A DNA stretch of 64,000 nucleotides from NCBI RefSeq assembly GCF_024436035.1, contig NZ_JANFNG010000010.1, positions 124,001 to 188,000 of the forward strand. The letters are read 5' to 3'. Made by a program: the position numbers and the translations under genes. Below, piece by piece: positions 2,392-43,051 of the stretch. How positions within the stretch are numbered: the first letter of the stretch is position 1; each line of letters starts with the position of its first letter. The notes beneath the pieces were generated by a model. The model saw only the letters and a list, made by a program, of their open reading frames with translations, did not search any database and was not told where the DNA came from. This DNA is from Streptomyces humicola. GTDB lineage: Bacteria; Actinomycetota; Actinomycetes; Streptomycetales; Streptomycetaceae.

Positions 2392-2428
2392 TGAGCCTGC
2401 GGCACTGAAACGATCTGGAGGGGCGCTG

Positions 2429-4021: not shown

Positions 4022-4136
4022 CCGACGACAAGCGCGGCGGGGAGGACGCCGGGGCGGTGCGAGAACTGGAGGCGGGCATGTCACTGGGACATGAGACCCT
4101 TGAGGGGTACCCGTCTCCGACCGGAAAGCTTGGCTT

Positions 4137-5239: not shown

Positions 5240-5314
5240 CAGCTGCTGATTTCGTATCCGGGCAGGTCACACGCTAAGCTCTCCTCGTTCCCGGCAGGAA
5301 GCGCCGGGAACGGC

Positions 5315-5387
<73 letters not shown>

Positions 5388-5401
5388 CACCTTCAGAAGG
5401 T

Positions 5402-5755: not shown

Positions 5756-5975
5756 GTCGGCCAGTCGGCGGGCGGCCTGCTGGTCACCGTCACCCAGCTC
5801 GGCCGGCTCATCGGCGTCGCGACACTCGGAACGCTCTTCCTCAACCGGCTGGCCACGGAGCACTCCTCAGCGCATGCGCTGTGGGCGACATCGGTGGCGC
5901 TGACCGCGACCGCCCTGGCGGGAGCGGCGGCCGGAGTGTTCCGGCAGCGCGGCCAGGCGCGGCCGGGTGCGGTCA
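5753..5975 (+). pseudogene. Remnant of an MFS (DHA2-type) transporter, last membrane helices only
   Basis: The plus frame reads GQSAGGLLVTVTQLGRLIG, VATLGTLFLNRL and then a second hydrophobic helix (WATSVALTATALAGAAAGVF), the typical last two segments of a 14-helix drug-proton antiporter. Everything before about 5753 is missing, and the frame lacks its own stop, running into the antisense of the convergent mannosyltransferase gene. Together with the MmyB remnant on the other strand this shows loss of the divergent start regions of a regulator/pump pair. Confidence 0.7.
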
Positions 5976-24654: not shown

Positions 24655-24690
24655 TTCTCTCCGTAGTTCATAACTGTCTCAGTCGAGAAG
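24655..24690 (+). repeat. Left end of the element
   Basis: Starts TTCTCTCCGTAGTTC and contains TGTCTCA at 24675-24681, followed by GTCGAGA, a loose inverted partner. The right end read on the opposite strand has the same ordered blocks. The rest of the 100 bp up to the first recombinase gene contains its RBS (GGGAGGG) but no obvious promoter. Confidence 0.55.
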
Positions 24691-24760
24691 AGAAGGCGGT
24701 GGCGAACAGACGAGAGCTGGTGTTATCTCTCATGGTTCACGAAGGGCTCAGGGAGGGATT

Positions 24761-28112: not shown

Positions 28113-30235
28113 ATGAATCCCTCGCAACTGTCCCGCCGCTGCCGAGCTCGGTGTTCGCCGACGACGAGCTCGTACTGCAGTCGCACCCTCTGATCGACGG
28201 GGTCGAGGTCCCCCTCTTCGGACGGATGGACATGTGGCCGCTCGTGGCGACCCGCAAGCCGGCCAACGTCGCCGTCTCCGCCTGGTGTGCACCTTTCACC
28301 GGCTTGGAGGGTGTTTGGAACCTGAGGGCTCGCGAAGTCGCCATGGTGCTGCTGAATCCCCGCCATCCGGCGGTCCTGGCCGCCGGGATCAATCGGAAGG
28401 CCAGACCTGCCTCGGTCAGCACGGTCTTCAACGCGATGTTCTTGCTGAGGCATCTTGCGAGCTGGGCAGCTGGGCGCGGACTGTCAGCGGACCTGGCCGA
28501 GTGGCAGGACGACGACGTCCGGGCATGGGTTGACCATCGCCGCGGCGAGTTGAGCGCGAGCGGGTTGGTGGGCTACGTGTCTGCCGCCCGGTTGCTACAT
28601 CAACTGGGCCCAGTGCTGACCGGCGGCGGTCTCGCCCGCGACCCATGGCGAGGTCAGTCTGCGCGGCAGGTCGTCGACCTCCCCGTCGACAAAACCGTTC
28701 GGACACCGAACATCGACCCGCAGGTCTGGCATGCACTGGTGAAGGCAGCTTGGACTTACGTCCATACCTTCGCGCCGGACATCCTGAAGGCGCGTGCGCG
28801 GGCCATCGAGCTTGAGCAGGCAGCGATCGCGACCGCTGCGGGGCTCGAAGCCCGGGTCGACCAATACCTCGCTGATCCGGACAACATCATCCCGCTCCAC
28901 CCTCCGCGCTACCTCGTCTACTGCAATCGGCATCAACCCGGCGAGTTCGGAACAGAGTTGGAAGTGAACTGGTCATTCCTCGGTGTCCTCCTGGGCATCC
29001 GCCGCGAGCAACGAGCTCTGACCACGCTCACTGGCTACCGCAGCCACGTTGGCCGGGCTCGGGCCAAGATCCTCCAAGCGGTGCGGGAGGGCCGAGGGCG
29101 TCCGGGAGGCCTCGTCGACTCCTACGCGACGGTCACCCGTCCGGACGGCAGTATCGGGCCTTGGCATCCCGGCCTGTCGCCCCGGGGCGTCCGGGAGGAG
29201 TGCGTCACCCTGCGCGCAGCCTGCTACGTGATGGTTGCGGCACTGTCGATGATGCGCGACAGCGAGATCCGCGAGATCACCCGAGGCTCGGTCGTCGAGC
29301 ATTACGGGGCGTCGGCGGTGGCGTCCATGAAGCGCAAGCACGATCCGAACCAGCCGCGCGAGCACTGGTGGATCATCGAACCGGTCGCCGAGGCCATCGC
29401 GGTCGCGGAGGCCATCTCCCGACATGTCGACCTGGTCTTCTCCAGCGACGTGGGCGGCGGTGTCAACGGCGAGAGCGTCGACACCGAAGCCGGCTTCAAG
29501 AGCGGCCAGATGGTGAGCCGATTCATCGAACGGATCAACGACCGCAGCGAGTTCACCGGCCTGACCATTCCCGAAGGGCACGTGGCGCCGCACATGTTCC
29601 GAAAGACGATGGCCATGCTGACCGCCACCGAGCCCAGCGCGGAGATCGCACTCGGCCTCCAGCTCAAGCACGCGGCGACTCGCGCACTGGCCAACCGATC
29701 CACCCAGGGATACATGGCCACGGACACAACCTGGGCGAAGCTGCTGGACTCGGCTGTCGACGACATCCGCTTCACCAGGCTGCGGGAGTTCTACGACGAC
29801 TATCACTCGGGCAAGGCCATCGGCTTCGGCCCAGGCGCTGAACGGATGATGGCCGCCTTTGACACCATCCGCCGAACGGCTCAGGCCCGGCAGGGCGACG
29901 CCCGGGTCGAATACGACATCCTTCGCAAGACGCGGATCTCGATCCGGCTGGGCAAGCTCAACCACTGCATGTTCGACGAGAACAGTCCGGCCGGCGCGAA
30001 GTGCCTCGAAGAGGCCATCGTCCCCGAGGGGCACCGGGGACCCCTGGTCGACCGATGCCAGCCAGGCCGATGCGCGAATAGCGTCATCGGACGAGAACAC
30101 CTCCCCATCTGGAAGGCCGAGCAGCACAGTCTCCTGACTCTGCTGGATCAGCCGAAGATCGCCCCATGTCGCAGGGCGGCCCTGCAGAACCAGCTGGAAG
30201 ACGTGAAAGCCGTGATCCGGAAGGCAGAGTCATGA
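28109..30235 (+). CDS. Tyrosine recombinase C (TnpB-like) of the element
   Basis: 708 aa, coupled to gene B by ATGA. The catalytic domain has Arg in LSMMRDSEIREI, His and Arg in PHMFRKTMA, a further His in LQLKHAATRAL, and a candidate Tyr in TQGYMA. A C-terminal Cys/His cluster (NHCMFDENS, KCLEE, RCQPGRCA) resembles the zinc-binding tail of Tn554 TnpB-type proteins. The large N-terminal half should hold a core-binding domain. Its own stop overlaps the start of the small gene that follows. Confidence 0.86.
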   Translation: MNESLATVPPLPSSVFADDELVLQSHPLIDGVEVPLFGRMDMWPLVATRKPANVAVSAWCAPFTGLEGVWNLRAREVAMVLLNPRHPAVLAAGINRKARPASVSTVFNAMFLLRHLASWAAGRGLSADLAEWQDDDVRAWVDHRRGELSASGLVGYVSAARLLHQLGPVLTGGGLARDPWRGQSARQVVDLPVDKTVRTPNIDPQVWHALVKAAWTYVHTFAPDILKARARAIELEQAAIATAAGLEARVDQYLADPDNIIPLHPPRYLVYCNRHQPGEFGTELEVNWSFLGVLLGIRREQRALTTLTGYRSHVGRARAKILQAVREGRGRPGGLVDSYATVTRPDGSIGPWHPGLSPRGVREECVTLRAACYVMVAALSMMRDSEIREITRGSVVEHYGASAVASMKRKHDPNQPREHWWIIEPVAEAIAVAEAISRHVDLVFSSDVGGGVNGESVDTEAGFKSGQMVSRFIERINDRSEFTGLTIPEGHVAPHMFRKTMAMLTATEPSAEIALGLQLKHAATRALANRSTQGYMATDTTWAKLLDSAVDDIRFTRLREFYDDYHSGKAIGFGPGAERMMAAFDTIRRTAQARQGDARVEYDILRKTRISIRLGKLNHCMFDENSPAGAKCLEEAIVPEGHRGPLVDRCQPGRCANSVIGREHLPIWKAEQHSLLTLLDQPKIAPCRRAALQNQLEDVKAVIRKAES

Positions 30236-30660
30236 GTGTTTCAGCGGCCACCGAGAAGGCCCTGCGCGAGGCCATGACACGGCTGGTCGAGGGCCACCCG
30301 CGCTTCACCGATGGCGCCCTCACCAAGGAGAACCTCTACCGAGAAGCCCGAGTCAGCCGGGCGACCATGAACCGAGCGACGGCAGTATTGGCGGACTGGG
30401 ACACCTACGTCTCCGAGCACGGCCGTCGCACCCGAGGCGAATCCCAGCGCGACGCCGAGATCGCCGAGCTGACCAGGAAGCTCAAAGCGAAGACCATGGA
30501 GTGCACACAACTTCAGCAGAAGCTCGATGCTGCCGCGACTGTGATCGCCGCCCTTCACCACGACAATGAGGCCCTCCGCGAGCACATTCACAGCCGATCC
30601 GACGGGCGGGTTGTCGCCTTCCCCGGCCGGTGGCGAGGCGAGGACCATGAAGTGCGGTGA
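30232..30660 (+). CDS. TnpC-like accessory transposition protein (DUF6262)
   Basis: 142 aa, coupled to recombinase C through ATGA. The first half contains LTKENLYREARVSRATMNRA, which looks like a helix-turn-helix; the second half is a long charged helix, probably coiled coil (AEIAELTRKLKAKTMECTQL), ending with a basic tail. In this position such proteins match the DUF6262/TnpC family. Tn554 TnpC influences the orientation and frequency of insertion without being a recombinase. Confidence 0.78.
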   Translation: MSVSAATEKALREAMTRLVEGHPRFTDGALTKENLYREARVSRATMNRATAVLADWDTYVSEHGRRTRGESQRDAEIAELTRKLKAKTMECTQLQQKLDAAATVIAALHHDNEALREHIHSRSDGRVVAFPGRWRGEDHEVR

Positions 30661-30694
30661 CGCTCGTCCCGGCTCTCCTGGAGACACAGGCAGT

Positions 30695-30727
30695 GGCATT
30701 TTGGTCGGCCGGGCCGACCAAAATGCC
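30695..30727. terminator. 15-bp hairpin after the recombinase operon
   Basis: GGCATTTTGGTCGGC (30695-30709) and its perfect complement (30713-30727) with loop CGG. It lies 34 nt after the tnpC-like stop, in the 241-bp gap before the convergent WbqC gene. Its AT content and symmetry also fit a protein-binding site. A weaker G/C hairpin (about 30868-30890) may end the WbqC transcript. Confidence 0.6.
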
Positions 30728-30901
30728 AATATTCCCGACACTTGAGCCGTTTGTGTCCCTGCTGGGGCAACAGAACGCCCCTCGGAACTCGCCCCGTCGG
30801 CCGCGGGGTCCCCTGCAGGATGGGTACGTTCGGGATTCGTACACGGCTGGGCACGTTCGCCGGTACTTCCCCCTCTCCGAGGAGGGGGGAGGTGGTGTCG
30901 C

Positions 30902-31696
30902 TCAGGCGACGGACCGCAGGTCGCCCAGAAGGGCTGCGGCTCGCATCTGGTCGGCCAGGGGCTTGGGTCCGATGCGCATCAGGAAGTGGACCGCGCTGAT
31001 CTGGCGCCCGGCCTGCCACGCCCCGGAGGTGGGCGGCCGGAACGGGATCACCTCGATGCCGCGGGTGGTGAACACATCGGTCTCCAGGTATTTTAGGCCG
31101 CCGGTCCCACATAGATAGCCACGGGCGCCAGTGGCCTCGGCGAGGTCGGCAAGCCGCCTGGTCCGGCCGGGCCGGGCAGGCAGGCGGCTGCTGCGGAGGA
31201 TCTTGCCGCTCCACCCGAGGAGGCCGAGCAGCACTCGGGTGGATGCCTCGGCGACCTCCGCGGTCTTGTCCGTCATGGTGAACAGGTCAAGCACGGAGGC
31301 GAGTTCGCGGCCGAAAACTGGCCAGTGCCGGCTGGCCTGGTAATAGTGCGGCAGCATCTGGCCCAAGCGCCGCCGCGACCGGGCCAGGTCGGCGATCTGA
31401 GCCTCGCGGATGGCCGTCTGGCGGCCATCGGGCAGGTGGGTGGGGATGGTGAGCCACTGGCGCCGCTGCGGGTCGTCCAGGGACGCCAGGCGGGTGCGGT
31501 GCTGGTAGTCGCGGCGGGCGAATTGGACGTCGTCCAGGACGATCCAGTAGTCCGCCGCGAACAGCTTGGCCAGCGTCGTCAGCCGTGGAAAGAGGTTGGG
31601 CTGGTGGATCGCGCACAGCCCGCCCGCAGGCGGGAGGTCAGGAGTTGATGAGGCGGCTGGTGAAGCCGTCGTGGATGAGAGATTCGTACGCGGCAT
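30902..31696 (-). CDS. WbqC family protein
   Basis: About 264 aa. The family's start block AIHQPNLFPRLTTLAKLF and VLDDVQFARRDYQHRTR is clear, as are the LMRIGPKPL end and the internal TGARGYLCGTGG. WbqC-like proteins are found in polysaccharide and other small-molecule gene clusters; the reaction is not established. The first 59 bp overlap the end of the YdcF gene. ATG 31696 has GGGGGA 5 nt upstream; ATG 31702 is in the same frame. It is the last gene of a minus-strand operon HTH-TPR, YdcF, WbqC in cargo module 1. Confidence 0.84.
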   Translation of the reverse strand: MPRTNLSSTTASPAASSTPDLPPAGGLCAIHQPNLFPRLTTLAKLFAADYWIVLDDVQFARRDYQHRTRLASLDDPQRRQWLTIPTHLPDGRQTAIREAQIADLARSRRRLGQMLPHYYQASRHWPVFGRELASVLDLFTMTDKTAEVAEASTRVLLGLLGWSGKILRSSRLPARPGRTRRLADLAEATGARGYLCGTGGLKYLETDVFTTRGIEVIPFRPPTSGAWQAGRQISAVHFLMRIGPKPLADQMRAAALLGDLRSVA

Positions 31697-32306
31697 GAAC
31701 ATCCCCCGGAACGTCTTGCTCGACGGCGAACCCGAGCTTCGGATACTCGATCACTCGCTGCAGGTCGCCGACGAGCATGTCGATGACGAGCTTCTCGTCG
31801 CCGATGCTCTTGAGGTAGTCGTCGAACTCCAGCGGCTCCGAGGCGCAGACGACCTCGACCTCGGGCCACAGTTTGCGGGCGGTGGCGAAGGAACGTCGCT
31901 CCATATATGGCTTGGAGACCAGCAGCACCGAGGACGGAGCGATCCCGGCGGCGGTCAGCACCTGACGGGAGAAGGTGATGTTCTGCCCAGTGTTTGCGGC
32001 CTTGGGCTCCAAGAGGATCGCGGAGTCCGGCACTCCCAGCTCCAGCGCGTGCTCGCGGAAGTGCACGGCCTCCCCGCGGGGGAAGCGGGCAGCGGTGGTG
32101 GGGCTGTTGCCGCCGGTGAAGACCAGGGTCGGGAAGAGCCCGGCGCGATACAGCTCGGCGGCGAAGCCGGCCACCCCCAGGTCGTGGCTGCCCAGGCCGA
32201 TCGCCACATCGCACGGCCGCACATCGTGGTGCATCTGGTGGTAGTCCCAGATCAGCATCGCCCGCTGCTGCTCGTCATCGGTGATGGCCCGCTGGTTGTC
32301 CGTCAC
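31638..32306 (-). CDS. YdcF family (DUF218) protein
   Basis: About 222 aa. It shows the YdcF core: DVAIGLGSHDLGVAGFAAEL, LVFTGGNSPTTA, the AVHFREHALELGVP helix, TGQNITFS and LLVSKPYMERRSFAT. DUF218 proteins have a Rossmann-like fold and bind nucleotide-like ligands such as S-adenosylmethionine; no enzymatic role is agreed. GTG 32306 has AGGGAG upstream; a longer start at GTG 32324 would overlap the stop of the upstream regulator gene. It overlaps WbqC, suggesting the two act together. Confidence 0.82.
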   Translation of the reverse strand: MTDNQRAITDDEQQRAMLIWDYHQMHHDVRPCDVAIGLGSHDLGVAGFAAELYRAGLFPTLVFTGGNSPTTAARFPRGEAVHFREHALELGVPDSAILLEPKAANTGQNITFSRQVLTAAGIAPSSVLLVSKPYMERRSFATARKLWPEVEVVCASEPLEFDDYLKSIGDEKLVIDMLVGDLQRVIEYPKLGFAVEQDVPGDVHAAYESLIHDGFTSRLINS

Positions 32307-32320
32307 TCGCTTCTCCCTGG

Positions 32321-33424
32321 TCACCGTCGCCGGGGGCCGGTCGCCCCCTCGCTCGTGTTCCGGATGCCCTCGATGCTGCGGAGTTGGTGGCTGAGCCCGT
32401 ACTGGGCGGCCCTCTTCGCGGCCTGGTCGAGTACCTGCAGTCCATCATCCCGGGTGGCCGGGTCGGACAGCAGGATGTGACCGTGGGCGGTGTCCAGACG
32501 CACGCGCTGCATCGGTGAGTCGGTCGTCGCGGTGCTGCGGGCGATGTCGATGAAGTGCAGGGCTTTGGTCAGGTCGCCGACGCCCCGGTGGGCGAGGGCG
32601 AGCTTCTGGTGGGCGACCGACCAGTCGTCGGGCTCGGACAGGTCTTCGAATTCGCGAGTCGCCGCCAGCATGACGCGGGCTGCATAGTCGTGGTTGCCGT
32701 CCTTGCTCAGCGCGGTGCCCACCCACAGCCGGGCCCTCGCGCGGTCGCGGCGGGAGAGCCGGTCGTCCACGGCGAGGGTTTCGTAGTGGCGGGCCGCAGT
32801 CTCCAGCTTGCCGGACATCTCGGCGACCACCGCCAGCGACAGGTCGAGCTGGGCGACGCGGCGGGGGATGTCGAGCTGGGTGAAGACCGAGCGGGCGCCG
32901 ACATACGAGTGCTGGGCCGAGATCGGCCCGATCACGGAGCCCTGGTCACGCTGCAGGTCACCGAGGAGGGCAGTGGATCGGGCGAATAGATACAGGCCCT
33001 GCTCGTCCAGCTCCGGTGGCTTGAAGCGGGTCAGCCACCGGTTCAGCAGGTTGTCGGCGAAGGCGAAGTTCTGGCGGGAGAGGGCGACCACCGCGCGGTC
33101 GAGGTCGTCGGTCCACGACTCGTACTCCCATGCCCGCGGCCCGGTTGCGGTGACGCGCTGCCCCGGCCGGACAGCGGGTCGCCCGGCCTCCGACAGCAGG
33201 GTCTCGAACCGCAGATGCACCGCGGCGTCCGCGCGGGCGAGCGCGGTGTCCAAGATGGCCTGGGTGTCGGGGCGGGGCTCGGTGGCGGCGAGGAGTTTTT
33301 CCCACTTGGAGACGGTGCCGACGGCGACGCCGAGCTCGTCAAGGGCGAACGTGCGGACGCTCAACCGCAGGGCGAGTCGCAGTGCCCGGGCCTCCAGGCC
33401 GGTCCAGTGGTGCACGGTCGCCAC
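32321..33424 (-). CDS. HTH (XRE) and TPR regulatory protein
   Basis: About 367 aa. The N-terminal 70 residues form a helix-turn-helix (LRLALRLSVRTFALDELGV, then VGTVSKWEKL). The remainder is alpha-helical and resembles TPR repeats (GLYLFARSTALLGDLQRDQG, then LDLSLAVVAEMSGKLETA, LWVGTALSKDGNHDYAA and LALAHRGVGDLTKALHFID). Streptomyces uses such proteins as sensors in small regulatory modules. GTG 33424 has a good GGGAG; ATG 33448 is an alternative. It heads the minus operon and is divergent from the resolvase-like gene, so it is a candidate regulator of both strings. Confidence 0.8.
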   Translation of the reverse strand: MATVHHWTGLEARALRLALRLSVRTFALDELGVAVGTVSKWEKLLAATEPRPDTQAILDTALARADAAVHLRFETLLSEAGRPAVRPGQRVTATGPRAWEYESWTDDLDRAVVALSRQNFAFADNLLNRWLTRFKPPELDEQGLYLFARSTALLGDLQRDQGSVIGPISAQHSYVGARSVFTQLDIPRRVAQLDLSLAVVAEMSGKLETAARHYETLAVDDRLSRRDRARARLWVGTALSKDGNHDYAARVMLAATREFEDLSEPDDWSVAHQKLALAHRGVGDLTKALHFIDIARSTATTDSPMQRVRLDTAHGHILLSDPATRDDGLQVLDQAAKRAAQYGLSHQLRSIEGIRNTSEGATGPRRR

Positions 33425-33576
33425 GCGTCGCTCCCTTCCATCCGTCATGGAAGCACGGCGCCTGCGGGCGGGGGGATGGAAGTGCAACGCAAGTGCAACA
33501 GCCGGTGATTCTCTGTCGGTAGGTACACCGCCAGGCTCGAAGCATCACTACCCCGAGTCCTGGACGGTTGAACAGC

Positions 33577-34020
33577 ATGGAACCCCTCACGGAGCACCGC
33601 CCGGTCAACGGCCCCGTCGTTTATGGCTATCTGCGGCTGGTGAAGGTCTCGCCAGCCCGGGAGATCGCCCTGGCCGCCTCGCTGGCCGAGTACTGCCGCA
33701 AGCACGAACTGGTGCTGTCCGGCATCTTCACCGAACGCCACGCGGGGGCCGGGCCGATGTCGCCGGCGTTCACCGGGCTGCTGGACGTGCTCGCGCTGCC
33801 CGACGCCTACGGCGTCGTGCTGCCCGCCACCTCCCACCTGGGCCCGAAGCCGATAGCGGCCGAGCGGCGAAGGCGGATCGAGGCGGCCGGGGCCCGGTTG
33901 CTGCTCGTCCGCGGCGGACGCAAGCCCCGACCGGCCGCCCATGGGACTTCCAGCCCGCCCAGCGGACGGTCCCGCCGCCGCAGCCAGGCGCCCGCCCCTG
34001 CCCTGGACGCCGAGACGTGA
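33577..34020 (+). CDS. Resolvase-like protein lacking the catalytic serine
   Basis: 147 aa. VYGYLRLVKVSPAREIA, ALAASLAEYCRKHELVLSG and FTERHAG resemble the N-terminal domain of serine recombinases, but the position of the active Ser after the YxR strand is Val, and no DNA-binding C-terminal domain follows, only a Pro/Ser/Arg-rich tail. It is therefore probably not a recombinase; short proteins of this type occur in Streptomyces accessory clusters with ATPase domains like the next gene. ATG 33577, weak RBS; TTG 33568 is possible. Confidence 0.6.
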   Translation: MEPLTEHRPVNGPVVYGYLRLVKVSPAREIALAASLAEYCRKHELVLSGIFTERHAGAGPMSPAFTGLLDVLALPDAYGVVLPATSHLGPKPIAAERRRRIEAAGARLLLVRGGRKPRPAAHGTSSPPSGRSRRRSQAPAPALDAET

Positions 34021-34028
34021 GGCTCGCC

Positions 34029-34439
34029 ATGCGCGATTCGACGCAGCGATTCTTCGACGCCACCCCCGAATCGGTCGCCCTCGCCCGCGACTTCACCACT
34101 AACGCCCTGGCCGCCTGGGGACTGACCCGAGCCGCCGACGATGTCCGGCTGTGTGTCTCGGAGCTGGCCTCCAACGCTCTCGTCCACGGCACCGTCCCCG
34201 GCTACGGCTTCCTGGTCCGTCTGGTAGTCGACGACGACTTCGTCCGCCTGGAAGTACACGACAGCCGCGACCACCGGCCCCAGCTGCGGCACCCGGCCGA
34301 CACCGACACCTGCGGCCGGGGGCTGATGATCGTCGAGGAGCTCTCGGACGGCTGGGGCGTCGAGGGCCGCGAGCCGTCGGGGAAGGTCGTCTGGTCGCGG
34401 TTCAAGGCCGCCTCCGCAGACCGGGGGGCTTCATGCTGA
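34029..34439 (+). CDS. ATP-binding protein (HATPase_c, RsbW/anti-sigma type)
   Basis: 136 aa, a small GHKL ATPase. The N box is CVSELASNALVHG, the G1-type motif is VHDSRDHRP, and the G2 region is GRGLMIVEELSDGWG. Such proteins act as anti-sigma serine kinases or regulators in Streptomyces. There is no adjacent sigma factor or anti-anti-sigma gene. It overlaps the next gene by 7 bp (start 34433). Confidence 0.85.
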   Translation: MRDSTQRFFDATPESVALARDFTTNALAAWGLTRAADDVRLCVSELASNALVHGTVPGYGFLVRLVVDDDFVRLEVHDSRDHRPQLRHPADTDTCGRGLMIVEELSDGWGVEGREPSGKVVWSRFKAASADRGASC

Positions 34440-34921
34440 CCCACCGCCCCGCACAGGCCACTGCCTCCGCCACCGGTCCGGGACTGGGACTGCTGGCCGC
34501 CCTGGGCGCCTGGACCTGGGCGGGCACCGACCCGGCCGGGCAGGGCATCGCGCACATCTTGCTTGCCCATCCGCCCGGTCGCACCGGTCACGACACCCCG
34601 CAGGCCATCGAGGCCCGCATGCGGCACATCGCCGGCTGCCTCGGCGGCCTGGCCGACCCGCTAGACGCCGTCCCTGACCTCGGCGAGCGTCTGCAGGTCG
34701 CGGGCTGCTGGGTGCTGCTGCGGTTCCCCGGCGCTCGCTACGGGATGCGACTGCCGAGCCACCCCCGCTGGACCGACCTGGTCACCAGTCGCCGCCAGGC
34801 CGTCCTCCTCGTCGGCCTGAACCCGCTGACACGCTCCGCCGACGCCACACGCGTCGACGCCTACCTGGACTCCGTACTTGCCGCCGACCGGCTGCTGTTC
34901 GGCCTGGTCCGCACCGCCTGA
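34433..34921 (+). CDS. Hypothetical protein, cargo module 1
   Basis: 162 aa of unknown family, start ATG overlapping the ATPase gene. Sequence is Leu/Ala/Gly-rich; segments such as GIAHILLAHPPGRTGHDT, WVLLRFPGARYG and AVLLVGLNPLTRSAD suggest a compact alpha/beta fold, no signal and no helices long enough for membranes. It sits between the ATPase gene and the AdoHcy-hydrolase-like gene and probably functions with them. Confidence 0.55.
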   Translation: MLTHRPAQATASATGPGLGLLAALGAWTWAGTDPAGQGIAHILLAHPPGRTGHDTPQAIEARMRHIAGCLGGLADPLDAVPDLGERLQVAGCWVLLRFPGARYGMRLPSHPRWTDLVTSRRQAVLLVGLNPLTRSADATRVDAYLDSVLAADRLLFGLVRTA

Positions 34922-34972
34922 AACCCAGCCTTCCCCTGCACGGTCCGCGCTGACGGATGAGAGGGAACTGCC

Positions 34973-36094
34973 ATGGAATCCTTCGAACGCGCCCGGCTGG
35001 ACGCCTACTTCGCCAAGATCACCGCCCAGTTCACCCCCGATGAGCAGGTGACATCCTTCCTGGTCACGCACCTGCTGCCGGAGCGGCCTGCTTTCGTCCG
35101 CGCGGTCGGCACTCTCACCCGGCTGCGAGCGGTGTTGCCCAAACCGAAATCGATCAACACCGCTGCCCGGCGAGAGGTTGAGAAGACCATCCCGGTCGAC
35201 GAGCTCTCCCGCGAGTTGTTCAGCGACCCTGATACCTCGCTGGACTACATCGAGTCCCGGGCTGCCGCCGAGCCGATCGTGCTGCTGGACGTCGGTGGCT
35301 ACTTCGCACCCGTCCTGGCCGATCTGCACGGACGCTTCTCCGGCCGCCTCCTTGGCGTGGTCGAGGACACCGAGAACGGCCACCGCCGCTATGCCGACCT
35401 CGACAAGCTGCCCTGCCCGGTGACCTCGGTCGCCCGCTCGCCGCTGAAGGACCCCGAGGACTTCCTCGTCGGCCAGTCCGTGGTCTTCTCCACCGAGGCC
35501 GTCATGCGCGGCCGCGGTGACATCCTCCACGGCCGCCCCGCCCTGGTGATCGGCTTCGGCAAGCTCGGCTCCTCCATCGCCCGGCTGCTGCACGCCAAGG
35601 GCGTCCAGGTCACCGTCTTCGACATCGACCCCGTCCGCCGCACCCAGGCCCTCTCCCAAGGCTTCACCGTCGCGCGTGACCGCGAGAGCGCGCTCACCGG
35701 GGCCGGGCTGGTGCTCTGCGCGACCGGCGCGATCGCCCTGCGGGGCGAGGACTTCCCCCACCTGCGCAACGGCGCCTACGTCGCCACCGTCACCTCCAGC
35801 GAGGACGAACTGGAACTGAACGGACTCCCGGAGGTCTACACCCGCACGATGGTCGGCGAGCACGTCACCCGCTACCAGACCACCGGCCACTACTTCTACC
35901 TGGCCAACGGCGGAAACGCCGTCAACTTCCTGCACGGCGCCAGCGTCGGGCCATTCATCTTCCTGATCCAAGCCGAAATACTCGCCTCGATCAGGATGCT
36001 CACCCGCGGCGACCTCGCCCCCGGCATGCACAAGGTCCCCGCGGCCGACCGAGCCGCCATCGCGGCAACCTGGCTCAACTACTTCAACAGGTGA
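34973..36094 (+). CDS. NAD-binding protein related to S-adenosylhomocysteine hydrolase
   Basis: 373 aa. The C-terminal half is a Rossmann domain (about 190-300) with VIGFGKLGSSIARLLH and TVFDIDPVRR, and a further CATGAIALRGEDFP segment, as in AdoHcy hydrolase and similar NAD enzymes. The N-terminal substrate half is not closely like true AdoHcy hydrolase, so it may act on a different, nucleoside-like substrate. ATG with GAGGGA upstream. Its stop overlaps the GTG of the NUDIX gene (GTGA). Probably part of a small-molecule pathway with WbqC and YdcF. Confidence 0.75.
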   Translation: MESFERARLDAYFAKITAQFTPDEQVTSFLVTHLLPERPAFVRAVGTLTRLRAVLPKPKSINTAARREVEKTIPVDELSRELFSDPDTSLDYIESRAAAEPIVLLDVGGYFAPVLADLHGRFSGRLLGVVEDTENGHRRYADLDKLPCPVTSVARSPLKDPEDFLVGQSVVFSTEAVMRGRGDILHGRPALVIGFGKLGSSIARLLHAKGVQVTVFDIDPVRRTQALSQGFTVARDRESALTGAGLVLCATGAIALRGEDFPHLRNGAYVATVTSSEDELELNGLPEVYTRTMVGEHVTRYQTTGHYFYLANGGNAVNFLHGASVGPFIFLIQAEILASIRMLTRGDLAPGMHKVPAADRAAIAATWLNYFNR

Positions 36095-36642
36095 TCGACT
36101 TGGCCATCACGGCAGACCACATCCGCACAACCCTCGGCGACTACCTCGACGAGCACCCGGAGGAGAAGGACAGCCTCGCCCCGGTCGTCGAGCTGCTGGA
36201 CGCCGGAGCCGACCTCACCAGCCGCAAGGAGTTCCGCGGCCACGCGACCGCCGGCGCGATCCTCGCCGGTCCGGACGGACGCATCCTGCACATCCACCAC
36301 CTCGCCCTGGACAAGTGGCTCCTGCCCGGCGGGCACCTCGAACCCCAGGACGAGACCCTGCTGGACGCCGCCCGGCGCGAGCTGACCGAGGAGACCGGCA
36401 TCCCCACCGAGACCGTCACCCCTATCAGTGATCGTCCCGTCCACATCGACGTTCACCCCATCCCCGCCAACGACGCCAAGGGCGAACCGGACCACCAGCA
36501 CGTCGACTTCCGGTTCCTCTTCCGCACCACTGCCGACGTCCGCCAGCTGCAGACCGAAGAGGTCACCGACGCCGCATGGCGGGATGTCGACACCCTCGGC
36601 GACGACCGCCTCCGGCACCGCGTTGCCCAGGCACTTCGCTGA
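36091..36642 (+). CDS. NUDIX hydrolase
   Basis: 183 aa. The Nudix box is visible as GGHLEPQDE, TLLDAARREL and TEETGI (G-x5-E-x7-REL-x-EE-x-G). It hydrolyses nucleoside diphosphates linked to another group; the substrate is unknown. Translation from GTG is coupled to the AdoHcy-hydrolase-like gene. It is the last gene of the plus-strand string of cargo 1, and a terminator follows. Confidence 0.9.
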   Translation: MIDLAITADHIRTTLGDYLDEHPEEKDSLAPVVELLDAGADLTSRKEFRGHATAGAILAGPDGRILHIHHLALDKWLLPGGHLEPQDETLLDAARRELTEETGIPTETVTPISDRPVHIDVHPIPANDAKGEPDHQHVDFRFLFRTTADVRQLQTEEVTDAAWRDVDTLGDDRLRHRVAQALR

Positions 36643-36652
36643 CGTTCGAGCC

Positions 36653-36690
36653 GGCCGCCCCTGCGCTGCCCCGAGCGCGCAGGGGCGGCC
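36653..36690 (+). terminator. Terminator after the NUDIX gene
   Basis: GGCCGCCCCTGCGC (36653-36666) and its complement (36677-36690), a 14-bp stem with a 10-nt loop, begin 10 nt after the stop. Confidence 0.72.
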
Positions 36691-36723
36691 TCCCATGTCA
36701 GAGTCCCGCGCGAACATGGGCCC

Positions 36724-37314
36724 ATGACTGACAGCCTCGCGTTGCATCCCCTGCAGATCCCGGACTGTCTCCACTCGGTCGGCCCCGGATGGCAGCCCCT
36801 GTTGATGCGGCTGCACAAGCAGCTGAAGGCCCTGGCCAGCGACTACCGCGTCGAAGACGTCAAGGAGAAGTTCGGCGGCCTGCGCGTCCGCGTTGCCGAC
36901 CGCTTCGACGCCGACGGCGAGTTCGACGGCGACTGGGCCGATGCGTCCAGTCCGCTGATCCGCGCGGCAGAGGCCATGTCCCAGACGATCTGCGAATTCT
37001 GCGGAGCCCAAGGCCAGCCCCGATCACGCGGAGACCGAGACGGCGGGTGGATCAAAACCGTCTGCGAACGGTGTCACCCGATCCGCCGGCCTGGAGCCAT
37101 CCCAGCGACCTTTTCCCCGGAGGAGCAGTGCGCCATCGCTGACCACGCCGACGAGCTCGGCCTATCCGTCATCCAGTACATTCGCCAGACAGCAGCGAGC
37201 AAGGCGACGCAGTGGCAACGCGAACGCGACGGCCTCCACGAGATCGCAGAACGGCGCGGGACGACCGTCGAGGAGATGCTGCAGCGCGGCTTCCTCATCG
37301 ACGACACACCCTGA
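36724..37314 (+). CDS. Hypothetical zinc-ribbon protein
   Basis: 196 aa of unknown function. The first part contains VEDVKEKFGGLRVRV, a block common in uncharacterised phage and actinobacterial proteins, followed by paired cysteines (CEFCG and CERC), probably one zinc site. The C-terminal half is helical (EEQCAIADHADELGLSV). Single gene between the cargo modules, with a weak RBS. The 256 bp after it show no gene. Confidence 0.6.
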   Translation: MTDSLALHPLQIPDCLHSVGPGWQPLLMRLHKQLKALASDYRVEDVKEKFGGLRVRVADRFDADGEFDGDWADASSPLIRAAEAMSQTICEFCGAQGQPRSRGDRDGGWIKTVCERCHPIRRPGAIPATFSPEEQCAIADHADELGLSVIQYIRQTAASKATQWQRERDGLHEIAERRGTTVEEMLQRGFLIDDTP

Positions 37315-37570
37315 CCACGGCGACCCCGCCATCGCCGCAGGGACCGAAGGGACTCACTACCCGAATCACGGCGACGCACCGCGCTCGCCGCCTGCCCGCC
37401 GGGCCTACACTGAACGGCGAAAGCCCCGGTGGACCGCTGACCTCCGTCGTCATGTCGCCGGGGCCAAGCCATGTCCGGCCCGTGCCTGGCCATCGCACAC
37501 GGCCTCGCGAACGCACCGGCACTGACAACACGCCCCGGAAGAAGCGGATGCCGCAGTTAGCAGGGGTAGA

Positions 37571-37873
37571 TCAGCTGGCGGCGTCGGCGTTAGGGTCACG
37601 AGCCACAAGAAGGTCACCAGGGGCGGAGTGGCGCGCGTGGGAGTACAGCTCGTCGAGCGACAGACCCAGCTCGGTGGCCAGGGCGGCGACGGTAAAGAAC
37701 TCCGGTGTCGTCGTGCGGCCCTTCTCGATACTCCGCACGGTCTCGACGGAGATCCCCGCGCTGCGGGCGACGGCCTCGGCCGAGCGTCCGGAAGCGCGAC
37801 GGGCCTGCGTCAGGCGGGAGGCAAGCCGTTGCCCGCGGTGCTGGGCGGCGGGATCGAGGCTCCTACGCGACAT
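37571..37873 (-). CDS. XRE-family controller-type regulator
   Basis: A 100-aa single-domain HTH protein (LTQARRASGRSAEAVARSAG, then SVETVRSIEKGRTTTPEF, then ALATELGLSLDELY), much like the controller (C) proteins of restriction-modification systems. Its ATG is at 37873-37871 without an RBS; TATACT (minus strand, 37886-37881) lies 7 nt upstream, predicting a leaderless mRNA. It diverges from the methyltransferase gene over a shared 26-bp palindrome to which it probably binds, repressing or timing both promoters. Confidence 0.82.
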   Translation of the reverse strand: MSRRSLDPAAQHRGQRLASRLTQARRASGRSAEAVARSAGISVETVRSIEKGRTTTPEFFTVAALATELGLSLDELYSHARHSAPGDLLVARDPNADAAS

Positions 37874-37875
37874 GG

Positions 37876-37901
37876 GTGTAAGTATACCTGTATAGTTACA
37901 C
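37876..37901. promoter_or_regulatory. 26-bp palindromic operator with two overlapping divergent promoters
   Basis: GTGTAA at 37876-37881 mirrors TTACAC at 37896-37901, and the TATA cores between are symmetric apart from two mismatched pairs. TATAGT (37891-37896) is a -10 box 6 nt before the methyltransferase ATG at 37903; TATACT on the minus strand is the -10 box of the regulator gene. Both start codons lie at about +1. It fills almost the whole 29-bp intergenic gap. Confidence 0.78.
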
Positions 37902-37902
37902 C

Positions 37903-39033
37903 ATGACGGTGATCGCGGCGGCTCCTTCCCCTAGCTGGCCTGAAGATGCACTGCGGCTCAACGCCGTCTGCCCGTACTACACGATGTTCCCGCTGGACTT
38001 CCCGCTCCAGCAGCTCGCCGCCCATCCCGAGGCCACCCGGGTGCTGGACCCGTTCTGCGGCCGGGGAACCACTCTGTACGCGGCCCGCCTGGCCGGGCTG
38101 CCGTCGGTGGGCATCGACATCAACCCGGTTGCCGCTGCTATCGCGCAGGCCAAGCTCATCCAGGCCACGCCGGGTGCTGTGGTCCGTCTCGCCCGGCAGA
38201 TCCTTGACGGCGGCCCGCGCGGTGAGGCCCCCGAGGGCGAGTTCTGGCAGTGGTGCTTCGAGCGCGAGACGCTACGCGAGCTGGTGACACTGCGCGAGGC
38301 CCTGCTGGAGATGACCACGCCGACAGCGGCGATGCTGCGGGCGGTCCTGCTGGGCATCCTGCACGGCCCGCGCAACAAGAACCTTCCGTCGTACCTCTCC
38401 AACCAGATGCCGCGTACCTACGCTTCCAAGCCCGCGTACGCGGTGAAGTTCTGGGCCAAGCGCGACATGAAGCCGGTGCGCATCCCGGCCCTGGAGGTCA
38501 TCGAGCGGCGGGCCAACCGTCTGCTGGATGCGTCCCCGCTAGCCCACGGCGGGAAGGTCTACCTGGGCGACTCCGTTGAGACCCTCGACGCCCTGCGGCA
38601 GCGCTTCGACCTGGTGGTCACCTCCCCGCCGTACTACGGGATGCGCACCTACGTGGCCGACCAGTGGCTGCGCTCATGGTTCCTCGGCGGGCCGGCGGAG
38701 GTCCCCTATGGCACGCACGGGCAGATCGCCCGCCAGCCGAACCAGGAGGCGTTCATCCAGGCCCTTGCCGAGGTATGGGCCGCCGCAGCCCGCCGTTGCA
38801 ACCAGGGCGCCCGGCTCGCGATCCGCTTCGGCGCCCTTCCCTCGGCCCGCACCGCCCCGGAGAAGATGCTGCTGGCCTCCGTCAAGGAGGCGAAGGCCGG
38901 GTGGGTCGTCAAGGAAGTCCGGCAGGCCGGCATTCCACCCAAGCGCACGCGGCAGGCCGAGCAGTTCGGCAAGGCGGGCTCTGCCATCGACGAGATTGAC
39001 CTCATCGCCGAACTGATCGGACTGCCCCGCTGA
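37903..39033 (+). CDS. Site-specific DNA methyltransferase (N4-cytosine or N6-adenine type)
   Basis: 376 aa. Motif I for S-adenosylmethionine is DPFCGRGTT (from residue 49), and catalytic motif IV is TSPPYYG (240-246). The SPPY form favours N4-cytosine, but N6-adenine is possible. The middle region (about 90-230) is probably for DNA recognition. No RBS; the -10 box is 6 nt before ATG, so the message is likely leaderless. It should protect host DNA from the NurA-like nuclease encoded next, if the module works like restriction-modification. A 123-bp gap with a small hairpin (GTAACC-CG-GTTAC region) precedes the next gene. Confidence 0.86.
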   Translation: MTVIAAAPSPSWPEDALRLNAVCPYYTMFPLDFPLQQLAAHPEATRVLDPFCGRGTTLYAARLAGLPSVGIDINPVAAAIAQAKLIQATPGAVVRLARQILDGGPRGEAPEGEFWQWCFERETLRELVTLREALLEMTTPTAAMLRAVLLGILHGPRNKNLPSYLSNQMPRTYASKPAYAVKFWAKRDMKPVRIPALEVIERRANRLLDASPLAHGGKVYLGDSVETLDALRQRFDLVVTSPPYYGMRTYVADQWLRSWFLGGPAEVPYGTHGQIARQPNQEAFIQALAEVWAAAARRCNQGARLAIRFGALPSARTAPEKMLLASVKEAKAGWVVKEVRQAGIPPKRTRQAEQFGKAGSAIDEIDLIAELIGLPR

Positions 39034-39156
39034 GCGGGTAACCCGGTTACTTCCCACAACTCCGTAACGGATCGTCAGTGCCTCGTGCCATGCTGTGGGG
39101 GCCATACGAGTGAACCACTCGCCTGTGACAGTCAGAGCGTGGTGTTGGGGAGAAGC

Positions 39157-40281
39157 ATGTTCGACGCGGACCAGATCAAGCAGCTCAAGCAACTGATCGG
39201 CGACCAGGTCGAAGCCGGCCGCGCGGAGCTGGACAAGCTGATCGAGCAGGCCCGCGTTATCGGCACCGGAGTGAAGGTCATCAAGCCGCGTGCGGCCACG
39301 TCGGTCGCGCTGATGGCCTCCGACGGCGGCAACAACAAGGTCGCCTTCAACCCCTTCTATCTCCAGGTCGTCCGCGTCGTGGACTCCAGTGGCAAGGAGC
39401 TGTGCCTGGAGGTCGTCTCCCCGATCTCCGACATCGAGGACCTGGGGCGGCGCCAGTTCGACGAAGACGGCAATCCGCGTACCGCCCTGGGCAAGTTGAT
39501 GAAGGGCCTGGGGGTGGAGAGGCTCAAGGATCTGTCGCCGATGTTGTCCGGCGACTCGCCCAGCTGGGTGCTCGTCTTCCGCGACCTGTGTGAGTGGGCC
39601 ACGCTCTACGACCTGATCTGCCACCGCGACTACGCGGTCGACACCCTCATCGTCCGTGACGGCTTGCTTCGCAGCAAGATCTTCTCCGGTGATCTGTTCG
39701 TGAAGATGGGGGAGCAGATCTACGAGGCCATCGAGCGGACCTGGCGCCGTGACCGACGCAAGGTGTGGCTGGTGGGACTCGCGAAGCGCACCCAGGTGCT
39801 GGAGTACTACCGGCTGGCGATCTCCCTGTCCGGTGTCTTCGATAACGGCGCCGCCTGCTTCGCCAAGGTGCCCTACGCCATGCTCGACCACGTCTACAAG
39901 TGGGAGGAGTACATCCGCGGCGTCGATGACACCACCTCCGGCGAGGACCCGAAGTTCAACTTCGGCTCGATGTACTTCGTCCGCTTCGGCCCCTACTCCG
40001 GCGACCCCATCTGGAGCGTGGACCTGATGTCCCGCCAGGACAAGGAGGCCCAGGCCATCTTCGGTTACCTGCAGGCCGACGCCGTCGCGGGCTTCCCTAT
40101 CCCGCTCTACCCCAACTGCATCCAGCAGGCCGACAGCTTCTCCCGCGTCGCCGACCTGGACCTGGACATCATCGAAGACCATCTCGTCGACGCCGTCCGC
40201 GACCAGGTCGGCGAGGACAAGGCCCCGGTCATCGATGCCCTGCGGCTGGCCTCTGATGTCGCTGCCCGCCGCTACGAGTAA
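39157..40281 (+). CDS. NurA-like nuclease
   Basis: 374 aa. It matches NurA nucleases in motif order: Asp56 in MASDGGNNK (metal), Asp168 in LIVRDGLLR (metal), Lys210 in LVGLAKRTQVL, and the C-terminal YPNCIQQADSF. NurA forms a ring with the hexameric ATPase HerA and degrades DNA ends; homologues with HerA have been implicated in phage defence. ATG 39157 has GGGGAG upstream. The HerA gene follows 42 bp later, which strongly supports the assignment. Overall similarity to archaeal NurA is remote and is judged from motifs only. Confidence 0.72.
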   Translation: MFDADQIKQLKQLIGDQVEAGRAELDKLIEQARVIGTGVKVIKPRAATSVALMASDGGNNKVAFNPFYLQVVRVVDSSGKELCLEVVSPISDIEDLGRRQFDEDGNPRTALGKLMKGLGVERLKDLSPMLSGDSPSWVLVFRDLCEWATLYDLICHRDYAVDTLIVRDGLLRSKIFSGDLFVKMGEQIYEAIERTWRRDRRKVWLVGLAKRTQVLEYYRLAISLSGVFDNGAACFAKVPYAMLDHVYKWEEYIRGVDDTTSGEDPKFNFGSMYFVRFGPYSGDPIWSVDLMSRQDKEAQAIFGYLQADAVAGFPIPLYPNCIQQADSFSRVADLDLDIIEDHLVDAVRDQVGEDKAPVIDALRLASDVAARRYE

Positions 40282-40323
40282 CGCACCCTGCCCGTCCCGA
40301 ATCCCGCGGAGTCACGAACCACC

Positions 40324-42546
40324 ATGAGCCTGTTCGAGCGCGACAAAATTGTCGGAACCTTCCGCGGCTTCGCAGAAAGCGGCATGGAGTTCCACGCTGA
40401 CCTCGTCCTGCCGCACCACGACGACTTCCAGAGCATGGCCATGCACGGCCAGTTCGTCCTTGTGCAGCTCGAACACGAGCGGGAGGCCATCCTCGGACGG
40501 ATCACCACCATTTCCTCCCAGGGGCGCCTCGTCTCTCCCATCGGAGAGGACTACGCCACCCGCGCGGTGCGCGACCAGCGCCCCATCCCCGACGAACTGC
40601 GCGAGCGCTACCTGAAGTACAAGGTCGACATCCGCATACTCGGCGTGCTCCGCCAGGAAGGCGACAAGCACATCTTCGTCCCCAGCCACCGCCGTCTTCC
40701 GCACGTCGGGGCTCAGGTCGCATTGCTGGGCGACGACTTGCTCGCCGAGGTTGTCAACGCCAACGACACCGACGACGGCGCGGTCCCCATCGGCTACCTC
40801 GCCTTCGGTGAGTTCGTCTATGCCGGCAACGACAAGCGCGTAGGCGACACCTCGTGGATGCAGATCCAGCAGCCCGCGATCATGCCGACCTTCCAGATCG
40901 GCAAGCTCGTGGCACGCCGCAGCTTCGTCTTCGCCCGCGCCGGCTTCGGCAAGTCCAACCTCGTCAAGCTGCTCTTCTCCGCCCTGTACGAAGACCAGCC
41001 GACGGTTCCGCGGCGCAACGGCGAAGCCCCGGTCGGCACGATCATCTTCGACCCCGACGGCGAATACTTCTGGCCCGACTTCAAAGGCCGCCCCGCCCTG
41101 TGCGACGTGCCGCACCTGCGCGACAAACTGGTCGTCTTCACCAACCGCAAGGGCCCCAGCGACTTCTACCAGTCCTTCGTCGTCAACGGCGTCAAGATGA
41201 ACATCAAGGAACTGCAGGCGTCCCGCGTGCTGGGCATCGCCCTGCCGCCGGAGAAGCAGGACCAGCAGAACGTCGTCAAGCTCAAGTCCCTCGACGGCCC
41301 CAAGTGGAGCCGGCTCGTCGACCTCATCCACCGTGAGAAGTACGGCGCAGACCGTGCCCAGGTCCAGGAGATCCTCAACCTCGATTCCGGCCAGGAGGCG
41401 GAGACCAACGCGGCGATCGGCAACATGACCCGCGTCGTCAACGCCCTGCACGACCCCGACAGCCAGCTGTTGAGCGCACTGAAAGACTGTCTGGCCCAGG
41501 GCAAACTGTGCGTCGTCGACATCTCTCAGATGCGCGGCTCACAGGGACTCCAGCTCGCCGGCGTCATCCTCGGCGACATCTTCGAGCACAACCAGAACCA
41601 GTTCACCGAGGCCGAACCGAAGTCGATCCCCACCATCGCCGTCATCGAAGAAGCCCAGTCCGTCCTCGGCGGCTCCTCCCAGAGCGAAGACGGCCCGTTC
41701 GTCTCCTGGGTCAAGGAAGGCCGCAAGTACGACCTCGGTGCCCTGCTGATCACCCAGCAGCCCGGCAGCCTCCCCCAGGAACTCCTCAGCCAGGGCGACA
41801 ACTTCTTCGTCTTCCACCTTCTCTCGCAGGGCGACCTCATCTCCCTGAAGAAGGCCAACGCACACTTCTCCGAAGACCTGCTCGCGACCCTGCTCAACGA
41901 GCCGCTCGTCGGCAACGGCATCTACTGGTCGAGTGCCCCCGGCACCGACCGCCACTCGCGCCCCTACCCCGTCTCCGTCCGTGTCCTCAGTTTCGAGGAC
42001 TCCTACGCGATGGCAGATCCCGGCTACAACACCCCGGCGCCCAAGAGCTTTGCCTCCCAGTCCCGTGCCTCCGTCGAGAAGCGACGCACGGAAGCGCGGG
42101 CTGCTTCTGCCAGCCTCGCCGCAAACCACCCTCAAGGCAGTACCGGGAACACCGGCGGAGACGACTTCGCGGTGGACGACAGCGCGATCGCGATCGTCCA
42201 CCTGCGAGACAGCAAGCCCGAGTTCCACAAACTGATCAACAGCGCCCGCGGCATCAAGTGGGGACACATCGCCCACATGCTGGCCGAGAAGGCACCCGAA
42301 TACGCCAAGCGGTCCGGATCCGACTTCGACTGGGGCAGGAGCCTGGTCAAGCAGGCACTGGATGAGTTGTACCCAGGACAGTGGATCACGGAAGCCCGTG
42401 AGGATGAGAAGAAGCCGGGCAATTTCCCCAAATACATCATGCTCAAGGAGCACGCTCCGACGAAGGAACCGACACCGGACATGGACGCGCCGCAGAGCGA
42501 CGCGCTGTTCGATGCCGAGCAGAGTGAGGAGGAACCCCCCTTCTAA
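40324..42546 (+). CDS. HerA-type hexameric ATPase
   Basis: 740 aa. An N-terminal HAS-barrel (about 5-150), then a DUF87-type ATPase with Walker A GFGKSN (207-212) and Walker B IAVIEEAQ (438-445). After about 550 it has an extra acidic, variable linker and C-terminal helical domain (DSAIAIVHLRD onward) not found in minimal HerA. It should translocate DNA into or through the NurA-like nuclease. It is not an FtsK/TraB conjugation protein: those features and a relaxase are absent. Confidence 0.84.
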   Translation: MSLFERDKIVGTFRGFAESGMEFHADLVLPHHDDFQSMAMHGQFVLVQLEHEREAILGRITTISSQGRLVSPIGEDYATRAVRDQRPIPDELRERYLKYKVDIRILGVLRQEGDKHIFVPSHRRLPHVGAQVALLGDDLLAEVVNANDTDDGAVPIGYLAFGEFVYAGNDKRVGDTSWMQIQQPAIMPTFQIGKLVARRSFVFARAGFGKSNLVKLLFSALYEDQPTVPRRNGEAPVGTIIFDPDGEYFWPDFKGRPALCDVPHLRDKLVVFTNRKGPSDFYQSFVVNGVKMNIKELQASRVLGIALPPEKQDQQNVVKLKSLDGPKWSRLVDLIHREKYGADRAQVQEILNLDSGQEAETNAAIGNMTRVVNALHDPDSQLLSALKDCLAQGKLCVVDISQMRGSQGLQLAGVILGDIFEHNQNQFTEAEPKSIPTIAVIEEAQSVLGGSSQSEDGPFVSWVKEGRKYDLGALLITQQPGSLPQELLSQGDNFFVFHLLSQGDLISLKKANAHFSEDLLATLLNEPLVGNGIYWSSAPGTDRHSRPYPVSVRVLSFEDSYAMADPGYNTPAPKSFASQSRASVEKRRTEARAASASLAANHPQGSTGNTGGDDFAVDDSAIAIVHLRDSKPEFHKLINSARGIKWGHIAHMLAEKAPEYAKRSGSDFDWGRSLVKQALDELYPGQWITEAREDEKKPGNFPKYIMLKEHAPTKEPTPDMDAPQSDALFDAEQSEEEPPF

Positions 42547-42575
42547 GCTCGTTCCACTGTCGAGGAAGGAGGGTC

Positions 42576-42908
42576 ATGACCGCCAGCAACCGCAGCACCC
42601 CTCTGACTCGGGCCGAGAACGACCTTCTCCAAGCCCTCTCAGTCCGGTGGGCGATGCACATCCTGCTCGCTCTCCGCGCTTTCGGTGATTCTGGGCGATT
42701 CAGCGAGATCCAGGAACGCGTCCCCGGGATCTCGAACCGTGTGCTCTCCGGGCGCCTTGCCGACCTGGAGAGCAACGGGCTGGTATCCCGCGATGTGGCG
42801 GCAACCCGGCCGGTCACCATCATCTACCGGCTCACCGGCCATGGTCAGCAAGTAGCCGGTGTCCTGACCCGTCTGCGCGAGGTAGCCGAGAGTTCACTCG
42901 ACACGTGA
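42576..42908 (+). CDS. HxlR-family winged-helix regulator
   Basis: 110 aa. RWAMHILLALRAFGDSGRFS, ERVPGISNRVLSGRLADLE and RPVTIIYRLTGHG are the typical HxlR wHTH blocks. The N-terminal cysteine used by some redox-sensing members is absent. ATG with AGGAAGGAGGG upstream, 29 bp after the HerA stop and co-directional, so it may be part of the defence operon. The 143 bp between its stop and the element boundary hold the right end of the element and no gene. Confidence 0.85.
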   Translation: MTASNRSTPLTRAENDLLQALSVRWAMHILLALRAFGDSGRFSEIQERVPGISNRVLSGRLADLESNGLVSRDVAATRPVTIIYRLTGHGQQVAGVLTRLREVAESSLDT

Positions 42909-43013
42909 TGTACGTCACTCGCTGGGAGTGCCTTGATGTCTCACCGAGGCTGCCGAGATGCATGCCTCGTGCAACCTTGCCGTCGTGCAACATCGAGGGC
43001 TGAGCTTGCACTG

Positions 43014-43051
43014 CATGTCTCATGAGACATGCGAATTGTGGAGAACGCCTG
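43014..43051 (-). repeat. Right end of the element
   Basis: Read inward on the minus strand it runs CAGGCG, then TTCTCCACAATTCGC, then TGTCTCA, matching the ordered blocks of the left end. An 18-bp perfect palindrome, CATGTCTCATGAGACATG (43014-43031), sits on the TGTCTCA block; another TGTCTCA lies near 42935. CGCCTG (43046-43051) is the probable right core. Confidence 0.58.

Follow-up and report, generated by a model that had tools for sequence, protein, structure and literature searches.

A candidate methylation-protected HerA-NurA restriction module on a mobile element of Streptomyces humicola

In the present study, we analyzed a 64,000-nucleotide (nt) stretch of Streptomyces humicola DNA (contig NZ_JANFNG010000010.1, positions 124,001 to 188,000), herein called the window, and focused on a gene cluster at window positions 37571-42908. 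A minus-strand XRE regulator gene is divergent from a run of four genes encoding a DNA methyltransferase, a nuclease, a HerA-type ATPase and an HxlR regulator; these assignments derive from Pfam, and that of the nuclease from its modeled fold. All five open reading frames (ORFs) claimed in a first-pass annotation of this DNA were present, at or near the positions proposed for them, and the motifs it had listed (DPFCGRGTT, TSPPYYG, GFGKSN, IEEAQ and Asp56/Asp168/Lys210) were all found. Loci and genomes of the comparison set are denoted below by L and G numbers, respectively. The features of the cluster are as follows (E, expectation value; HTH, helix-turn-helix; pLDDT, predicted local distance difference test score):

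37571-37873, minus strand: XRE/Cro-C1 HTH regulator, candidate C-type controller (HTH_31, E 2.5e-11)
37874-37902, no strand: divergent promoter and putative operator of 29 bp, a near-perfect palindrome (GGTGTAA-N14-TTACACC, core TATAC-CT-GTATA)
37903-39033, plus strand: DNA methyltransferase with permuted motif order (Pfam N6_N4_Mtase, E 3e-10; PADLOC MTase_II, E 1e-17)
39157-40281, plus strand: predicted NurA-fold (TdpB-like) nuclease (AlphaFold pLDDT 81; Foldseek; profile match to TdpB)
40324-42546, plus strand: HerA-type (TdpA-like) translocase ATPase (DUF87, E 3.9e-14; TdpA 8wet_A, E 3.3e-17)
42181-42543, plus strand: C-terminal extension of the HerA protein, possibly winged-helix (AlphaFold pLDDT 72; helices, then two strands)
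42576-42908, plus strand: HxlR-type regulator, accessory (HxlR, E 1.1e-19)

First, the protein encoded at 39157 (374 amino acids (aa) from the ATG at 39157, with alternative in-frame GTG starts at 39085 and 39142) had no family match in Pfam, PADLOC 2023, NCBIfam 2026 or PHROGs. The suggestion that this protein is NurA-like was borne out by an AlphaFold model built from an alignment of 13 relatives, for which the pLDDT given above is the mean. The best Foldseek match of the model among solved structures was TdpB (8wfd, E 1.1e-10, template modeling (TM) score 0.66/0.70; 8wet, E 1.3e-10), followed by Sulfolobus NurA (SsoNurA; 2ygk, E 5.6e-5, TM 0.39/0.44), and no other match was observed below E 0.001. 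Based on sequence alone, the profile of the nuclease family matched only TdpB (E 5.4e-9), at an identity of about 20%. The residues D61, E151, D173 and K215 are invariant in close relatives (alignment A1) and reach at least 90% conservation in the broader alignment A6, and the last three align with the Glu, Asp and Lys of TdpB. These residue numbers count from 39142 and are 5 lower from 39157 (D56/E146/D168/K210), and E146, within an E-W-A motif, is a fourth conserved acid beyond the three residues highlighted in the first pass. On this model, the 39157 product is a NurA-fold (TdpB-like) nuclease of predicted activity.

Second, the 740-aa HerA-type ATPase exceeded the Pfam cut-off in its DUF87 match, and its nearest solved sequence is TdpA, for both the window copy and the L017 copy (E 2.7e-21). 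The Walker A motif AGFGKSN, the Walker B motif IEEAQ and the HerA TQxP region are conserved among relatives. The 586-aa TdpA stops at the HerA core, whereas the present protein continues for about 120 residues or more. A search with this C-terminal domain returned weak forkhead/winged-helix matches that all failed to reach E<0.001; these matches were all that was obtained, and a role as a reader of modified bases is not claimed for the domain. The folds and families agree with the NurA-HerA pair initially named, but the pair is not a generic one, as its nearest relative is TdpAB, which performs restriction in a phosphorothioation system.

Third, the N6_N4_Mtase match of the methyltransferase was above the Pfam cut-off. 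Motif I (DPFCGRGTT) stands ahead of motif IV (TSPPYYG), and the N-terminal part of the protein is matched by the C-terminal end of the Pfam N6_N4 model; thus, the domain is permuted compared with the N6_N4 family. The motifs DPFxGxGTT and TSPPY are kept in relatives down to 44% identity (alignment A4). The methylated base is probably N4-cytosine or N6-adenine, and N4-cytosine is a plausible product by analogy with the permuted N4-cytosine methylases known in related conflict systems (PMC10853773). Several other settings of this methyltransferase family were also observed. On the rhizobial plasmids L024 (7965-13315) and L026 (7965-13324), a member is convergent with a gene for an AAA_11/AAA_12 helicase of about 1,414 aa, the helicase part of which has DpdJ/MkoA-like PADLOC matches and which might belong to another unnamed methylation-linked system. 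On the viral contigs L062 (4102-7628) and L063 (5377-10257), a GmrSD_N gene follows the methyltransferase gene; L062 also encodes a RiboL-PSP-HEPN protein, and L063 carries a second methyltransferase and, ahead of the methyltransferase gene, a HerA C-terminal remnant.

The three genes recur together in other genomes, as was expected for the methyltransferase and HerA genes in the first pass. In 15 of the 18 assessable loci, the gene for the nuclease or for HerA has a methyltransferase gene or its remnant as a neighbor, and the trios are ordered either methyltransferase-NurA-HerA or NurA-HerA-methyltransferase; this count takes in the viral contigs L063 and L064 and leaves out G590 and G554, which are cut by contig ends and have methyltransferase genes at other contig ends, as well as a marginal match in G312 (E 9e-4). 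Complete or near-complete trios were observed in Streptomyces (L003 and L005), Actinomadura (L004), Sphaerisporangium (L006), G059 (L023) and G786 (L149), a decayed trio in Nocardiopsis (L007), and a remnant of the nuclease and methyltransferase in G345. Distant trios (46-53% identity) are present in another class (G306, G571 and G634, the last with HerA truncated at the contig end), and G324 has a distant trio in the order nuclease-HerA-methyltransferase. The TdpA- and TdpB-type genes are adjacent in intact loci. Across eight loci, the pairwise identities of the three proteins are correlated, with r at 0.98-0.99 over the full set and at 0.75-0.88 when actinomycetes alone are compared. Since the trio proteins are about 44-92% identical elsewhere and the neighborhood is kept, the arrangement in the window reflects more than chance. 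Among the distant trios, that of G306 (a coriobacteria-like locus) has GmrSD and AbiEi-like genes in its vicinity, and a DruE-like helicase gene comes after it. In two coriobacteria-like genomes, the gene immediately downstream of the trio encodes a giant helicase (L017 11254-16734; L041 1-1056). In L040 6818-12007 (G571), parts of the nuclease and HerA genes are duplicated in tandem, which is either real or an assembly artefact.

Other lineages show a similar combination. A haloarchaeal (Halorarius) plasmid carries HerA, NurA-like, methyltransferase and HTH genes in a row (L028 4304-10014), and the Deferribacter plasmid pDF308 carries methyltransferase, HerA and NurA genes in this order, with HerA split by an IS200/IS605-TnpB insertion (L030 1-6380). 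Profile comparison detected no homology between the Halorarius NurA (P0001) and the TdpB-like family. The Halorarius cluster was therefore rejected as a family member and treated as parallel, and the combination of HerA, NurA and methyltransferase has probably arisen more than once.

Several observations weigh against a functional tie between the methyltransferase and the pair. The three divergent loci L008, L018 and L150 carry the NurA-HerA pair with no methyltransferase gene beside it, and no close methyltransferase copy was found in the genomes of L008 and L018. The methyltransferase family also stands alone or with other partners (a rhizobial AAA helicase; GmrSD-HEPN) and is thus a mobile part. 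NurA-HerA might be a stand-alone defense or exclusion nuclease, cued by DNA ends or another sign of an invader, with the methyltransferase as separate cargo or as the guard of an element-specific site. The HTH-HerA-NurA genes without a methyltransferase on cyanobacterial plasmids are also in line with this account. We nevertheless consider it unlikely, because the linkage in 15 of 18 loci persists through changes of gene order and because the other NurA lineages joined with HerA and a methyltransferase, in Halorarius and Deferribacter, argue for a functional need.

The cluster had been placed on a mobile element, and this was confirmed by an 18,397-bp insertion that splits comEC. The flanks at 24654 and 43052 are contiguous in G001, a genome of the same genus that has the empty site. 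The insertion point lies inside the LTHFHADHV codons of comEC and splits the metallo-beta-lactamase motif into LTHF and HADHV. The cluster is the right-hand cargo of the element, and recombinase ORFs occupy the left end:

24655-43051, no strand: mobile element within comEC, with the module as cargo
24761-30660, plus strand: recombinase module, comprising the four ORFs below
24761-26218, plus strand: phage-integrase ORF (E 4e-9)
26187-28112, plus strand: ORF with no Pfam match
27833-30235, plus strand: ORF with a weak phage-integrase match (E 0.0016, below the cut-off)
30166-30660, plus strand: coiled-coil ORF

We take the recombinase ORFs to resemble Tn554-type tnpA/B/C. The other cargo of the element (32808-37314) encodes a HATPase regulator, an adenosylhomocysteinase-like NAD domain protein, a NUDIX hydrolase and a NikA-like ribbon-helix-helix protein.

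The trio is also carried by a phage. The viral contig IMGVR_UViG_3300027968_000132 (L064) contains the complete nuclease-HerA-methyltransferase trio together with a ParD-like antitoxin gene (2026-7086), flanked by the large terminase gene (phrog_15, E 1e-249) on one side and the portal gene (phrog_21, E 4e-104) on the other. The nuclease is rare and patchily distributed: counting the window's own genome, it was detected in 2 genomes among 150 relatives, in 7 among 397 from the phylum and in 4 among 395 from the class. Phage and plasmid searches with the window, L017, L018 and L064 versions of the nuclease gave no match, and scans of viral contigs with the A1, L064 and A7 queries returned nothing or only the contig of L064; the wider distribution is therefore drawn from the genome sets and this one viral contig. 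A function in DNA end resection or repair was once proposed for archaeal HerA-NurA, and the present genes, which have the fold and ATPase families in common with the repair enzymes, might form a repair operon with a neighboring epigenetic regulator. This role is disfavored by the distribution and mobility of the genes, as they are rare and patchy and travel with an integrating element and a phage genome, and their products are nearer to the Tdp pair than to the repair enzymes; we therefore regard it as highly improbable.

The regulatory region is also conserved. The XRE gene is divergent from the methyltransferase gene in L003, L004, L005 and L023 as well, and the palindrome in the gap between the two genes is kept in these four loci and the window, while its core CCTGTATA is also retained in L006 and L007. 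The gap contains -10-like hexamers in both directions and a single promoter-like match, ending at 37896. The placement of the hexamers suggests that the transcripts in the two directions would begin on or close to their start codons and that the XRE and methyltransferase genes are both probably leaderless or nearly so. The simplest reading of the palindrome is a single operator to which the C-type protein would bind. The HxlR gene had been counted in the module and is present in the window; however, homologues downstream of the trio were observed elsewhere only in L005 and L023, and with only three loci it is left out of the core.

Herein, we propose that the trio and its controller form a methylation-protected HerA-NurA restriction module, to which we assign a probability of roughly 0.7, defense and self-protection being the inferred functions. 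The methyltransferase would mark the host DNA. The TdpA-like HerA hexamer, in a predicted complex with the TdpB-like NurA nuclease, would pump double-stranded DNA into the nuclease, which would degrade unmarked DNA. The XRE protein would bind the palindromic operator between its own gene and the operon, and the timing of expression could allow methylation to run ahead of the build-up of the nuclease. The mark could block loading, translocation or cleavage, and methylation might thus take the place of phosphorothioation as the sign of self. A restriction-modification-like system with a translocating nuclease as the effector, as suggested in the first-pass annotation, is still the best reading, despite the three loci that keep the pair without the methyltransferase. 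Of the observations listed in the first pass as refuting that suggestion, none was made outright, since the nuclease has a NurA fold, the trio recurs and the nuclease has no named family in PADLOC 2023.

The way in which self DNA would be spared can be pictured in two forms, which overlap with the proposal above and are not exclusive of it. Tentatively, the nuclease might have no recognition sequence, with the pump running along any DNA and methylation at scattered sites either halting it or preventing it from loading; phosphorothioation is likewise thought to stop TdpAB. In the other form, which is not favored, the methyltransferase would also provide the specificity, joining HerA-NurA and loading the complex at unmethylated sites, similar to type I/III or BREX-like systems. 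In known HerA-NurA machines, double-stranded DNA is passed by the HerA hexamer to a NurA dimer, a processive exonuclease that degrades both strands. The HerA of T. kodakarensis touches the DNA at its backbone alone, and HerA-NurA shows no sequence specificity (PMC12977600); something must therefore choose the target. Between L017 and L040, the methyltransferase is more diverged (68%) than NurA and HerA (80-81%), as expected for a specificity subunit. However, no dedicated interaction domain was recognized, the gene order is variable, three pairs lack the methyltransferase, and the actinomycete methyltransferase is not faster evolving. If the proposal of methylation-based protection is correct, HerA-NurA pairs would be interchangeable translocating effectors for different self-marks beyond phosphorothioation, namely sulfur in Tdp, and methyl groups both in the present module and, by separate origin, in haloarchaea and Deferribacter. 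Moreover, the discrimination of self and non-self by a sequence-independent DNA pump would become directly testable: the trio is compact, at about 4.7 kb, occurs intact in streptomycetes and is also present in a phage genome, and could therefore be transferred to laboratory strains for assay.

Several known systems have components in common with the module. The trio was unreported in the literature searched for HerA-NurA-methyltransferase and for TdpAB/TdpABC, a search that did not extend to subscription papers and preprints. Membership in BREX, DISARM, HerA-SIR2, HerA-DUF4297 and classical restriction-modification was considered and rejected. Classical restriction-modification with a C protein also combines a methyltransferase, a nuclease and a divergent XRE regulator on a palindrome, but the module has no classical endonuclease or REase-fused SF2 helicase and instead has a NurA that would be driven by a HerA pump. 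HerA-SIR2 and HerA-DUF4297 likewise form anti-phage complexes of HerA and a nuclease or other effector, although the effector fold differs and a methyltransferase is lacking. MADS contains the same kinds of enzymes (mad2 methyltransferase and mad8 HerA-like ATPase; weak profile matches, E 4e-9 and 6e-10), but the eight-gene mad1-mad8 set was not found, and other families score higher than the weak mad1/mad2/mad8 likeness; to our knowledge, MADS has no NurA among its genes. A large helicase gene, as in Druantia, follows two coriobacteria-like trios and is DruE-like in L017 (E 1e-107), whereas neither the window module nor L040 has a DruE-like gene and no other Druantia proteins were identified; membership was rejected. 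The CxC-ABC/DndE systems with cytosine methylases provide a precedent for methylation replacing phosphorothioation, but their core is an ABC ATPase and DndE rather than HerA-NurA (PMC10853773).

The archaeal and Deinococcus HerA-NurA systems have the RNase-H-like NurA fold and the HerA hexamer family in common with the module. They differ in lacking a methyltransferase, in their proposed function in end resection and possibly defense, and in a weaker structural match (2ygk, as above). Closer is TdpABC of thermophiles (TdpAB, PDB 8wet/8wfd/8y1k), in which a HerA ATPase and a NurA-fold nuclease are also encoded together. Among solved proteins, its subunits are nearest to both the HerA and the NurA protein of the module in sequence, and to the nuclease in fold as well. 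In Tdp, a phosphorothioate mark reportedly protects self DNA, and the system is said to combine this mark with TdpAB as its translocating nuclease. No phosphorothioation-type gene was recognized beside the pair in the window, and no search of the whole genome with the TdpC sequence was made. The module differs from TdpABC by a methyltransferase in place of TdpC, the XRE controller, the additional HerA C-terminal domain and the low identity of the nucleases. The gene set had been thought undescribed, and the absence of a PADLOC 2023 family for the nuclease is consistent with this view. However, because TdpB and TdpA are the best matches, the module is best described as a TdpAB-type HerA-NurA machine combined with DNA methylation, and thus as a variant of a kind of system that is already known, not as one of an undescribed kind.

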